A DNA stretch of 64,000 nucleotides from Luteimonas sp. 9C (lineage in GTDB: Bacteria > Pseudomonadota > Gammaproteobacteria > Xanthomonadales > Xanthomonadaceae): NCBI RefSeq assembly GCF_902506295.1, contig NZ_LR733312.1:62001-126000 (forward strand). Direction: 5' to 3'. How positions within the stretch are numbered: the first letter of the stretch is position 1; every line of letters starts with the position of its first letter. Position numbers and translations under genes: made by a program. The notes under the pieces were generated by a model. The model was not told the DNA's origin. It made no database searches and saw nothing but the letters and a program-made list of their open reading frames with translations. Positions 18,846 through 23,389 of the stretch are shown one piece after another.

Positions 18846-19013
18846 ATTTTGTTTTGGAGGCTGATCCTGCCTCCGCCCGTCGTCCCTGCGATGGCCTTCC
18901 ATGCTCCGGCGTGTCGATGACCAGCCGATGACAGGCGTGAGGGCCGGTTAACGGCGATGCCCCGGGCATCCGCTACGCTCCGCGCCACCTCCACCACCCG
19001 CACGACCGCCCGC

Positions 19014-19961
19014 ATGCCCGCACCGCTTTGGCGCCTGATCCTCAATGGCAAATCCGCGGACGACGAGGCCGTGCGCACGGCAGTCGCCGCACTCCGCGCG
19101 CGCGGGGTGCGCATCGACGTCCGGGTGACCTGGGAGGGCGGCGACGCCGAGCGTTACACCGCCGAGGCGCTGGCGGAGTCGGTGGACACCATCGTCGCCG
19201 CCGGTGGCGACGGCACCCTCAATGCCGTGGTGTCGGTGCTGGCCGCGCAGTCCGCCGATGCCGACGCGCTGCCGTCGCTGGCGTTGCTGCCCCTCGGCAC
19301 GGCCAACGATTTCGCAACCGCTGCCCAACTGCCCGAACCGACCGAAGACGCGTTGGCGCTGGCGCTCGACAGGCCGGCCGTGCCGGTCGACGTGTTGCGC
19401 ATCGAGACCGAAGACGGCGTGCACTGGTGCGCAAATCTCGGCTCCGGTGGCTTCGGCACCCAGGTGACGGTCGAGACGCATGCGGGCCTGAAGAAGGTGC
19501 TGGGCGGGCTGGCCTATTTCATCACCGGCCTGTCGCGTCTCGGGCGCATCGAGCCGCTGCAGGCGCGCATCACCGGCCCGGATTTCGCCTGGGCTGGAGG
19601 ATTCATCGCACTGGGCATTGGCAACGGCCGCCAGGCCGGCGGCGGGCAGGCGCTGTGTCCGGATGCGTGCATCGATGACGGCCTGATCGACGTCACCATC
19701 GTTCCGGAACTCGAAGGCGAACTGGTCAACACGCTGCGGACCGCGCTGACCGAGGGCAAGGTCGCCGCGCTCGACCAGGTCGCCGTGCGCACGCAGCTGA
19801 CCGAACTCGTCGTCGAGTCCGAAACGCCACTGGTCCTCAATCTCGATGGCGAGCCGGCGCGCGCCAGGCGGTTCGCGATCACCTGCAAGCCCGGGCGTCT
19901 GCGGCTGCACCTGCCGCAGGACTGCCCGCTGCTCGTCGCGTCCCCGCACGCCCCGGTCTGA
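19014..19961 (+). CDS. Diacylglycerol/lipid kinase, YegS-like
   Basis: 315 aa from the ATG at 19014. It carries the DAGK catalytic-domain motif [11 protein letters not shown] (residues ~61-71) and [11 protein letters not shown], both part of the ATP-binding site of the YegS/DgkB fold, and the C-terminal beta-domain with [12 protein letters not shown]. Homologues phosphorylate phosphatidylglycerol or diacylglycerol. The start is uncertain: an earlier in-frame ATG (18957) would add 19 residues of low-complexity Thr/Arg/Ala sequence that does not look like the protein. It precedes the trp genes on the same strand but is separated by a probable promoter. Confidence 0.92.
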
Positions 19962-19987
19962 CGGTCGCGCGTTTCCGGTCGAGCCGC

Positions 19988-19993
19988 TACAGT
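19988..19993 (+). promoter_or_regulatory. Probable -10 box of the trpE transcript
   Basis: TACAGT lies 7 nt before the ATG of the Trp-rich leader ORF, placing the transcription start at about 20000. No clear -35 is visible. Confidence 0.5.
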
Positions 19994-20000
19994 AGCCGCC

Positions 20001-20144
20001 ATGCACGCGTCCGCACTCCCGCATTTCCGTTTGCCCGACGCCGGCTGGCGATGGTGGCGTACCGCCTCCGTTGCCCCCGTTCGTCCGACCGACCAGGAAA
20101 TGCCGCGTGATCACGCACACCGAGTTCCAGCACTACGCCGCTGA
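20001..20144 (+). CDS. trpL: Putative trp leader peptide ORF overlapping trpE
   Basis: 47-codon ORF between the trpE promoter and trpE. It encodes MHASALPHFRLPDAGWRWWR followed by TASVAPVRPT and more, with three Trp codons clustered at 20046-20057. Trp is the rarest residue, so three in four codons just before trpE is the hallmark of an attenuation leader. The ORF runs through the trpE ribosome site (20095-20098) and start codon (20107) in another frame and stops at 20142-20144, so leader translation could occlude trpE initiation. No intrinsic terminator with a T-run was found. The ORF would be leaderless. It could be chance; conservation would decide. Confidence 0.55.
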   Translation: MHASALPHFRLPDAGWRWWRTASVAPVRPTDQEMPRDHAHRVPALRR

Positions 20145-21591
20145 CGGCCACACCCACGTTCCCGTGGTCCGCGAGGTCCTGAGCGATCTCGACACACCGC
20201 TCTCGGTCTATCTCAAACTCGCCGACGGCCCGCATACCTACCTGTTCGAATCGGTGGAAGGCGGCGAACGCTTCGGTCGCTACTCGATCATCGGTCTGCC
20301 GGCCGAACGCGTCTACGCCTTCCACGGCCATACGCTCAGCGTGCGCGAGCACGGCGAAGTCATCGAGACGCGCGAGGTCGACGATCCCTTCGCCGAAGTC
20401 GAGCGTCTGCGCACCGCGCATTCGGTCCCGCAGATCGACGGCCTGCCGGACTTCACCGGCGGTCTGGTCGGCTGGTTCGGCTTCGAATGCATCGAGTACA
20501 TCGAGCCTCGCCTGCGCGAGGGCCGGCGCGTCGACGTGCGCGACGAACTCGGGACGCCCGACATCCTGCTGATGCTGAGCACCGAGGTCGCGGTCTTCGA
20601 CAACCTCAAAGGCCGGCTGTATCTCGTGGTCCACGCCGACACCCGCGAATCGCAGGCCTGGCTGCGCGCGAACCGTCGCCTCGACGCACTGACGCACCGA
20701 CTGCGCCAGGGCGGCGCCGGCTATCCGGAAACGCTGCAGCCTGCCGCGCTCGACGAATCGGATTTCGTGTCGGGTTTCACCCGCGAGGGCTTCCTCGACG
20801 CGGTCGCGAAGACGAAGGCATTCATCGCCGCCGGCGATGCCTTCCAGGTCGTGCTGTCGCAGCGCATGTCGGTGCCGTTCAATGCGCGGCCGGTCGACGT
20901 CTATCGCGCATTGCGCGCGTTGAACCCGTCGCCGTACATGTATTTCCTCGATGTCGGCGGCACCCAGGTCGTCGGCTCATCGCCGGAAATCCTGGTGCGC
21001 CTCAAAGGCGGGGAAGTCACCGTGCGCCCGATCGCCGGCACGCGGCCGCGCGGCGCGACGCCGGCGCAGGACCAGGCGCTGGAAGCCGAACTGCTCGCCG
21101 ATCCCAAGGAGCGTGCCGAGCATCTGATGCTGATCGATCTCGGCCGCAACGACGTCGGTCACGTGTCGGCGCCGGGCACGGTCGAACTGGGCGAGCGCTT
21201 CGTCATCGAGCGCTACAGCCACGTCATGCACATCGTCAGCGAGGTCACCGGCCGTCTGAAGGACGGATTGAGTTACGCCGACGTGCTGCGCGCGACGTTC
21301 CCGGCCGGCACCGTCAGCGGCGCGCCGAAGGTGCGCGCGCTGGAGATCATCCGCAGCCTCGAACCGGTCAAGCGCAACGTCTATTCGGGCGCGGTCGGCT
21401 ACATCGGCTGGCACGGTGACGCCGACACCGCGATCGCCATCCGCACCGCGGTGATCCAGGACGGCCGCCTCTACGTGCAGGCCGGCGCCGGCATCGTCTA
21501 CGACTCGGATCCGGAAATGGAATGGGCCGAGACCATGAACAAGGGCCGCGCGCTGTTCCGCGCGGTCGCCCAGGCGGCGAAGGGACTGTGA
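20107..21591 (+). CDS. trpE: Anthranilate synthase component I
   Basis: 494-aa chorismate-utilising enzyme; with TrpG glutamine amidotransferase it makes anthranilate, the first step of tryptophan synthesis. Signatures: [19 protein letters not shown] block [19 protein letters not shown] for Trp feedback binding near the N-terminus, and the C-terminal catalytic region with [44 protein letters not shown] and [17 protein letters not shown]. The GTG at 20107 is preferred: AGGA (20095-20098) lies 8 nt upstream and the protein then starts [20 protein letters not shown]. Likely controlled by the overlapping Trp-rich leader. trpG begins 50 bp downstream. Confidence 0.97.
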
Positions 21592-21640: not shown

Positions 21641-22219
21641 ATGCTGTTGATGATCGACAACTACGACAGCTTCACCTGGAACCTCGTGCAGTATCTGCAG
21701 GCGCTGGGCGCCGAGGTGCGGGTGGAGCGCAACGATGCGCTGACGGTCGACGCGATCCAGAAGCTCGCACCCGAGCGCATCGTGATCTCGCCCGGCCCGT
21801 GTACGCCGAACGAGGCGGGCGTGTCGCTGGAACTGATCGAACGCCTCGGCGCGACGACGCCGATCCTCGGCGTGTGCCTCGGCCATCAGGGCATCGGTCA
21901 GGCCTATGGCGGCAAGGTCATCCGCGCGCAGCGGATCATGCACGGCAAGACCTCGGCGATCCGTCACGAAGGCCGCGGCGTGTTCGCCGGTCTGCCGGAT
22001 GGGTACGAGGCCACGCGCTACCACTCGCTGGTGGTCGAGCAGTCATCGCTGCCGGCGTGCCTCGAAGTCACCGCGTGGACCGAGCACGACGACGGCAGCC
22101 GCGAGGAGATCATGGGGCTGCGGCATCGCAGCCATCCGGTCGAAGGCGTGCAGTTCCATCCCGAGTCGATCCTGACCGAGCACGGACATGCGCTGCTGAA
22201 GAATTTTCTGGAGAGGTGA
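21641..22219 (+). CDS. trpG: Anthranilate synthase component II (glutamine amidotransferase)
   Basis: 192-aa class I glutamine amidotransferase that supplies ammonia to TrpE. Starts [19 protein letters not shown], the usual N-terminus; the nucleophilic Cys sits in [11 protein letters not shown] and the His-Glu pair in [12 protein letters not shown], so the triad is complete. It is followed by 132 bp of repeat-bearing spacer before trpD. Confidence 0.97.
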
Positions 22220-22351: not shown

Positions 22352-23389
22352 ATGCCCATTACCCCCCACGAAGCCCTGCAACGCACCATTGAGCACCGCG
22401 AGATCTTCCGCGATGAGATGGTCGAGCTGATGCGCCAGATCATGCGCGGCGAGGTGTCGCCGCTGATGACCGCGGCCATCCTGTCCGGCCTGCGGGTCAA
22501 GAAGGAAACCGTCGACGAGATCGCCGGCGCGGCGCAGGTGATGCGCGAGTTCGCGTTGCCTGTGCCGGTCGCCGATGCGGATCGCGCGCATCTGGTCGAT
22601 ATCGTCGGCACCGGCGGCGACGGTGCGCATACGTTCAACATCTCGACGGCGAGCATGTTCGTCGTCGCGGCGGCGGGTGCGAAGGTGGCCAAGCACGGCA
22701 ACCGCAGTGTGTCGTCGAAGTCGGGCAGTGCCGACGTGCTCGAAGCGCTGGGTGCGCGCATCGATCTGCAGCCGGCCGATGTCGCGCGTTGCATCGCGGC
22801 GACCGGCATCGGCTTCATGTTCGCGCCGGTGCATCACCCCGCGATGCAGGCGGTCGCGCCGGTGCGCCGCGAGATGGGTGTGCGCACGATCTTCAACATC
22901 CTCGGCCCGCTGACCAATCCGGCCGGTGCGCCGAACATCCTGATGGGCGTGTTCCATCCCGATCTCGTCGGCATCCAGGTGCGCGTGCTGCGCGAACTCG
23001 GCGCGCAGCGCGCGCTGGTGGTCTGGGGCCGCGACGGTATGGACGAGATCTCGCTGGGTGCCGGCACGTTGGTCGGCGAGTTGCGTGACGGCGAGGTGCG
23101 CGAATACGAGATCCACCCGGAGGATTTCGGCATCGCGATGGCCGCCAGCCGCAATCTGCGTGTCGAGAACGCCGACGAGTCGAAGGCGCTGGTGCGCCAG
23201 GCGCTCGACGGCACGCCGGGCCTGGCCCAAGACATCGTGCGTCTCAACGCGGGTGCGGCGCTGTACGTCGCGGGCGTGGCGAGCTCGATCGCGGACGGTG
23301 TCGCGCGCGCAGGCGCGGTGATCGCCTCGGGCGACGCGCTGCGCCGATTGGAGACGTTCGTCGCGGAAACGCGCAACACAGGCCTCTGA
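22352..23389 (+). CDS. trpD: Anthranilate phosphoribosyltransferase
   Basis: 345-aa cytoplasmic enzyme transferring phosphoribose from PRPP to anthranilate. Signature blocks: [19 protein letters not shown] (PRPP pyrophosphate loop, around residues 84-102), [21 protein letters not shown], and [22 protein letters not shown]. The length matches the family. It begins [18 protein letters not shown]. There is no strong ribosome site in the repeat-bearing spacer just upstream. Confidence 0.97.

Follow-up and report, generated by a model that had tools for sequence, protein, structure and literature searches.

The trpE leader locus

The window analysed here is a stretch of 64,000 nucleotides of Luteimonas sp. 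9C DNA, and all of the features described below lie on its forward strand. An open reading frame at 20107–21591, with a GTG start codon at 20107, is taken to be trpE (anthranilate synthase component I) on the grounds of apparent homology and of its position ahead of a trpG-like ORF at 21641 and a trpD-like ORF at 22352. As a query against its own 3.35 Mb genome, this TrpE sequence gave one full-length match with 100% identity and two partial matches with 44% and 35% identity. The start of trpE is overlapped out of frame by a Trp-rich leader ORF of 47 codons (20001–20144), recognised from the sequence and its conservation, whose peptide begins MHASALPHFRLPDAGWRWWRTASV. The neighbouring upstream ORF (18957–19961) ends 39 nt ahead of the leader, and a -10-like box, TACAGT (19988–19993), is followed 7 nt downstream by the leader start codon. 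The regulatory codons TGG CGA TGG TGG (20046–20057, encoding WRWW) comprise TGG at 20046–20048, 20052–20054 and 20055–20057 and CGA at 20049–20051; they are marked by conservation as well as by sequence, and also form the 5' arm of the tip of the predicted hairpin described below. The Shine-Dalgarno (SD) region of trpE, AGGAAATGC, is placed at 20095–20103 by sequence and predicted pairing, with AGGA at 20095–20098. The leader stop codon, TGA at 20142–20144, is written across trpE codons 12 (GCT) and 13 (GAC). A re-reading of the sequence returned the leader ORF, Trp codons, TACAGT box, SD and GTG start at exactly the positions given by the first-pass annotation.

No intrinsic terminator was found between 19700 and 20400 of the window (0, versus 0.3 in shuffled sequences), so that the earlier description of the locus as lacking one, unlike the E. 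coli model, stands. The same interval contains no sigma-70 consensus pair, and a search of 19000–21000 against Rfam gave no family at gathering score and two weak matches at chance level.

Distribution and conservation of the leader

A search at E <= 1e-60 located TrpE in 371 of the family's 395 genomes, and among the loci listed the closest named relatives are Lysobacteraceae. The sample for comparison consisted of 172 trpE upstream regions, made up of 24 of the 80 loci of a first listing, a further 30 loci, and two sets of 80 and 38 regions. These are the best-placed matches and are hence weighted to nearer relatives, and some genomes are included as two copies. From the first listing 25 loci were scripted and 24 counted; the 55 left out belong mostly to other orders or are unclassified, and include L066, which came without upstream DNA. 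Leaders were called where a TAnnnT box lay 5–9 nt before the start codon and where CGA followed by TGG or CTG occurred in frame. No match to TrpE came from two genera (g30 and g34), and a third (g54) lies outside the sample.

The comparison across relatives that the first-pass annotation had called for shows its Trp-rich leader to be conserved. Relatives of the leader were found in 131 of the 172 regions, representing 125 distinct sequences, and by a hand tally in 32 of the 51 sampled genera, the other 19 having none. Carriers include Xanthomonas sp. GPE 39, Stenotrophomonas tumulicola, S. koreensis, S. pennii, three Pseudoxanthomonas and Luteimonas weifangensis, and the leader is absent from the examined regions of Rhodanobacter, Dyella, Luteibacter and their relatives. 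When the CGA demand was dropped, no Trp-pair leaders turned up outside these 131 regions; one region (L141), in which the core is present and a box match is missing, is counted as having no leader. The start codon is ATG in 99 leaders and GTG in 32. The motif WRWW is present in 101 of the 131 and WRWR in 12, the remaining 18 having one or two Trp in that segment. The ORF has the general features of a Trp leader-peptide control element, being short, placed ahead of a trp gene and provided with a cluster of Trp codons that relatives keep, and judged from the compared sequences it is not a chance occurrence.

The TAnnnT box lies 6 nt from the start codon in 73 leaders, 7 nt in 51, 8 nt in five and 9 nt in two, a distribution to be read with the knowledge that the caller required a box at 5–9 nt. 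Within this limit, the start is placed as for a leaderless mRNA, as the earlier annotation had supposed, and the box-to-start spacing suggests that the mRNA is probably leaderless.

Among 52 aligned sequences, which were picked for the core, GGCGA is invariant and GGCGATGG is among the best-conserved columns. The core is retained even where the flanking Trp codons are gone, as in GRWR and RRWR. Between the Trp codons, arginine is encoded by CGA in all of the leaders found, a condition set by the main caller but not by two other listings. The peptide does not force this choice, which could be explained by slow decoding or by base pairing of the codon to U within the hairpin. In 40 disjoint pairs, differences upstream of the core showed no third-position excess (59/69/58) and those downstream only a weak periodicity (38/60/64), and the peptide is therefore not visibly conserved outside WRWW.

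Some regions depart from this pattern. In four members of the window's own genus (L130, L132, L133 and L134) the leader stops right after WRW (TGG CGA TGG TGA), and the stop at trpE codons 12/13 is absent. Six others (L005, L008, L140 and L142–L144), of which the unnamed members belong to a single genus, have single-Trp leaders with an early stop and, in most of those tested, weak SD pairing; these are possibly decaying copies of the switch. In leader-free regions of the family, GGCATACT occurs at most 80 nt before trpE in 15 of 21 (L218, L221, L222, L226, L227, L230, L233, L234, L238–L240 and L242–L245) and ATACT in 18 of 21. The closeness of GGCATACT to trpE suggests a different, short trpE 5' end in these genomes.

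A pattern search beyond the family returned matches in other families of the order, of which 12 were inspected (L194–L204 and L208). Eleven of the 12 share one conserved stretch and none resembles a trpE upstream region, and these candidates were rejected as leaders. Within that stretch TGGCGATGGTGGC recurs (L194–L204), apparently unrelated to trpE; in L194 the stretch is antisense to a 228-codon ORF that seems to resemble TolQ/ExbB.

Frame relation and position of the leader stop

Eleven different distances, ranging from 53 to 89, separate the core from the trpE start; nine of them are in one phase, and the frame relation of leader and trpE is held in 128 of 131 leaders. The exceptions are L216 and the pair L004 and L161, which are copies of one contig. 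A rough parsimony count gave 36 spacing changes versus 2 phase changes; the tree was built on 105 nt of trpE, is approximate and likely overcounts. Leader stops lie at +20 to +59 relative to the trpE start in 118 of the 131 and at -61 to -41 in the other 13, and none falls from -40 to +19.

The place of the stop within trpE is still more narrowly defined. Of the 114 distinct overlapping leaders, 101 terminate precisely at trpE codons 12/13, mostly by NCT-GA (GCT-GA); a stop triplet occurs there in 103, but two of these leaders (L120 and L224) end earlier and are not counted. The other 13 distinct overlapping leaders use a different stop, 20–53 nt past the trpE start. None of the 11 distinct early-stopping leaders has the codon 12/13 stop, and among the 41 regions in which no leader was called, only one (L017) has a stop triplet at this place. 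GCT accounts for only 26 of 1915 Ala codons (1.4%) in the body of trpE in 46 leader genomes. Where residue 13 has become Asn, in seven close relatives (L179–L185) and in L229, the stop is kept as TAA. By these comparisons the out-of-frame overlap is under selection. Since both frame and stop are conserved, the leader frame appears to be translated into trpE, and the position of its end appears to matter.

In the two alternative frames, the leader would be fused to TrpE or would terminate on the trpE start (NTGA). Either outcome would presumably be disfavoured because any translation of the leader would then bring about trpE expression. A further reading frame was noticed here: the AUG within CGA-TGG opens a mini-ORF in the third frame (20051–20110 of the window), which ends on a TGA overlapping the trpE start (GTGA). 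A third-frame mini-ORF ending on the trpE start (NUGA) is found in 95 of 114 genomes compared, and early stops were counted in 3 of 105 for the third frame, versus 10 for the leader frame and 25 for the trpE frame. Against selection for this mini-ORF, CGA-TGG yields an AUG automatically and NTGA at trpE starts is also seen in leader-free regions. Perhaps a stalled leader ribosome passes initiation to a mini-ORF coupled to trpE in a three-frame relay, a scheme that we regard as highly improbable.

Predicted pairing between the leader and the trpE Shine-Dalgarno

A feature absent from the first-pass annotation is a predicted hairpin between the leader and the SD. In the predicted fold of the window, the anti-SD segment GCAUUUCC (20021–20028) pairs with the complementary SD segment GGAAAUGC (20096–20103), a pairing also obtained by duplex prediction, and closes a hairpin that has the Trp-codon segment as its tip. 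The tip (20047–20075) is predicted to consist of GGCGAUGG (20047–20054) paired with CCGUUGCC (20068–20075) and an inner stem of 20056–20059 with 20063–20066. Duplex prediction (row L084) additionally pairs ACGCG at 20005–20009 with CGCGU at 20104–20108, into the trpE start codon. Predictions for other genomes show a similar architecture in other letters, namely GCUUUCC/GGAAAGC in L010, CUUCCG/CGGAAG in L156 and CCUUC/GAAGG in L097. The single-fold z-scores are modest, at -1.44 (150 nt) and -2.25 (125 nt) for the window and from -1.40 to -2.93 for four other genomes.

RNAalifold applied to a MAFFT alignment of 52 sequences returned only three pairs and did not show the hairpin, which we attribute to the shifting of the anti-SD between clades and to the gappy alignment. 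For this reason the alignment-free swap and shuffle tests were used, and the structural support rests on them. The periodicity, alignment, fold, swap and site-opening sets omit L004 and L161 (other phase), L016 and L145–L148 (GCGATGG present by position with no leader ORF around it, in other phases), and L142 (no exact GCGATGG).

When leader segments and SDs of 52 genomes were swapped, own pairs gave -18.6 kcal/mol versus -15.5 for swapped pairs (z -8), and none of 20000 permutations was as low as the own pairing; thinning to 31 genomes left z at -5.9. Six other segment pairs used as controls gave z from -2.0 to +1.7, including -0.7 for the segment ahead of the leader against the SD and -2.0 for the core arm against its downstream partner, where a weak signal is expected because the core hardly varies. 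Divided by part of the leader, the half farther from the core gave z -1.0 and the middle z -6.3. In the shuffle test on 68 genomes, 6.96 of 10 SD nucleotides were paired to the leader versus 3.93 with shuffled leaders (p = 6e-12). The leader–SD pairing is thus co-adapted across genomes, and the kind of SD-sequestering stem that characterises the ermC type is here predicted by the folds together with the two tests.

The SD pairing is on average weaker with a degenerate leader, the means being 4.68 versus 3.78 shuffled in early-stopping leaders (n=9) and 4.59 versus 3.58 in one-Trp leaders (n=8). It falls below the shuffled mean in six of the 68 genomes (L005, L008, L119, L134, L144 and L162). 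Exceptions to the trend are the strong pairing in L004 and L159 (early stop) and L216 (one Trp), and the weak pairing in the long leaders of L119 and L162.

Modelled opening of the trpE site by a stalled ribosome

The energy required to open the trpE site was modelled with an assumed ribosome footprint that reaches from 14 nt upstream to 16 nt downstream of the first base in the P-site codon; for three genomes in which the start was not found in this run (L005, L008 and L144), a fixed 5' end was used. The median over 52 genomes was 11.6 kcal/mol with no ribosome, 7.9, 8.0 and 8.6 kcal/mol with a ribosome at the first, second and third Trp codon, and 11.9 kcal/mol with a ribosome at the leader stop. 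Relief of at least 2 kcal/mol was obtained in 37, 36 and 34 of the 52 genomes at the three Trp codons in turn and in none at the leader stop; at the first Trp codon, 15 of the 52 remained below this value. A ribosome stalled at that codon would be expected to have its footprint begin just downstream of the anti-SD, which it therefore does not simply cover. For the window, the relief with pairing across the ribosome allowed was 1.1 (15.2 to 14.1), 4.7 and 3.9 kcal/mol at the first, second and third Trp codon, and with such pairing forbidden the energy fell to 7.7, a relief of about 7.5 kcal/mol. Predicted opening at the Trp codons and not at the leader stop gives the model a sensible direction, in which Trp shortage would open trpE.

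Proposed mechanism and alternatives

We consider it likely that the leader and hairpin together form a ribosome-controlled translational attenuator of trpE. Comparison among the genomes supplies its sequence components, namely the leader, its Trp codons, the frame relation, the stop codon and the leader–SD co-adaptation. In the proposed scheme, transcription would begin at or beside the leader AUG or GUG, and a 70S ribosome would initiate the 47-codon leader at the mRNA 5' end. With Trp-tRNA plentiful, it would pass quickly through WRWW and across the trpE start in the other frame, to stop 36–38 nt inside trpE. Behind it the RNA would form the predicted long hairpin of GCAUUUCC with the SD GGAAAUGC, tipped by GGCGAUGG with CCGUUGCC, and trpE would be poorly initiated. 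With Trp-tRNA scarce, the ribosome would stall at WRWW and break the tip and middle of the hairpin, leaving the trpE site open. Because the overlap is out of frame, leader ribosomes would neither terminate at the trpE start nor read through it as a fusion, and the overlap may contribute some occlusion as well. A more ambitious reading, which we offer only tentatively, is that one device operates across the family and combines sensing, SD sequestration and an enforced overlap, with the leader stop written in trpE codons and a frame that avoids the trpE start.

The first-pass annotation had proposed translational occlusion, and its overlap proves to be selected. Taken as the whole mechanism, with moving leader ribosomes covering the trpE site, stalled ones leaving it free and RNA structure irrelevant, occlusion accounts for the conserved frame (128 of 131) and the kept codon 12/13 stop (101 of 114). 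It does not account for the 13 of 131 leaders that end 41–61 nt ahead of trpE, it does not alone predict the co-adaptation of leader and SD, and its reach would depend on ribosome initiation rates; as a complete explanation it is unlikely.

The overlap could also serve the opposite purpose, if ribosomes finishing the leader inside trpE slid back to the trpE start and restarted, as in the case of the MS2 lysis gene, so that leader translation would activate trpE. The 118 of 131 stops that lie 20–59 nt past the trpE start would suit such coupling, but Trp shortage would then reduce trpE expression, which is the wrong direction, and early-stopping leaders could not act in this way at all. The mycobacterial coupled class ends on the start codon (RTGA), as described in PMC4633059, unlike the present leaders, where 0 of 131 stops lie between -40 and +19; stalling at regulatory codons is described as reducing reinitiation in PMC4833913. 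We give this activating role little credence, and the same holds for Rho-dependent transcription attenuation, by which ribosome position would expose a C-rich leader RNA to Rho. The stretch from core to SD does average 50% C and 24% G (68 genomes), in a locus with no intrinsic terminator found in 19700–20400 of the window. In long leaders, however, it is the stalled ribosomes that would leave the C-rich stretch exposed, whereas fast ones would shield it, so that this direction is wrong as well, and pairing with the G-rich codons also explains the C-richness. Polarity could follow as a secondary effect once trpE is untranslated. Classical transcription attenuation by terminator and antiterminator has the Trp codons ahead of trpE in its favour, but with no hairpin followed by a T-run in that interval of the window, and with a leader that runs into trpE and leaves no intergenic room for a terminator, it can practically be dismissed.

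A translational attenuator of this kind provides a specific and testable account of possible trpE control in the family to which Xanthomonas, Stenotrophomonas, Luteimonas and Pseudoxanthomonas belong, and is a case in which a regulatory ORF dictates the choice among synonymous codons in the adjacent enzyme gene. Because overlapping and early-stopping forms both exist, it is also a natural system in which to separate occlusion from hairpin sequestration.

Comparison with known systems

The E. coli trpL attenuator likewise has Trp codons in a leader ahead of trpE, but here there is no terminator and the regulation is read as translational. Translational attenuators of the ermC type respond to a drug, upon which a stalled leader ribosome opens a hairpin sequestering the SD. 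The present element may share that opening, whereas its signal would be uncharged tRNA and its leader overlaps the target. In the B. subtilis rtpLP-rtpA (anti-TRAP) system, which Chen and Yanofsky reportedly described in 2003 and 2004, translation is said to be controlled by a Trp-codon leader. That leader ends just ahead of the rtpA SD, so that a ribosome that has finished it covers the SD. Both systems would sense Trp-tRNA through the Trp codons of a short leader and control translation of the next gene. In the present family, which is Gram-negative, the target is trpE itself, the leader crosses its start out of frame, an SD-sequestering hairpin is predicted, and the stops, at -61 to -41 or +20 to +59, do not fall shortly before the SD as in rtpLP.

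Comparative studies of proteobacterial attenuators exist in subscription journals. Among the matches listed in the open-access literature, titles and opening lines of abstracts describe no trp leader in this family, and subscription papers may mention one. Three further systems are compared here. In mycobacteria, polycysteine leaderless short ORFs act on the translation of the downstream gene (Canestrari et al. 2020, via the review PMC9031893), and overlapping and coupled leaderless ORFs are also described (PMC4633059). These resemble the present leader in a leaderless start (probable here), a run of codons for the regulated amino acid and an effect on downstream translation (proposed here), and differ from it in that here the amino acid is Trp, the stop is fixed inside the target gene and an SD hairpin is predicted. 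The RNA of S. meliloti trpL begins at its ATG, before trpE(G) (PMC7298713), and is thus similar in being a Trp leader ahead of trpE on an RNA that starts, here putatively, at the start codon; that leader is short (14 aa), however, and acts by transcription attenuation with a terminator. The actinobacterial LEU element before leuA combines a leader ORF containing Leu codons with a predicted base stem that includes the SD of the biosynthetic gene (PMC1262725), an arrangement like the present one except that there the SD is paired by the Leu codons themselves, with a predicted pseudoknot, whereas here the predicted partner of the SD is a segment farther upstream and the tip is made up of the Trp codons. 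The combination of features found here is not described in the available text of the papers on the compared systems, and the element would be a newly found variant of the known leader-peptide attenuators.
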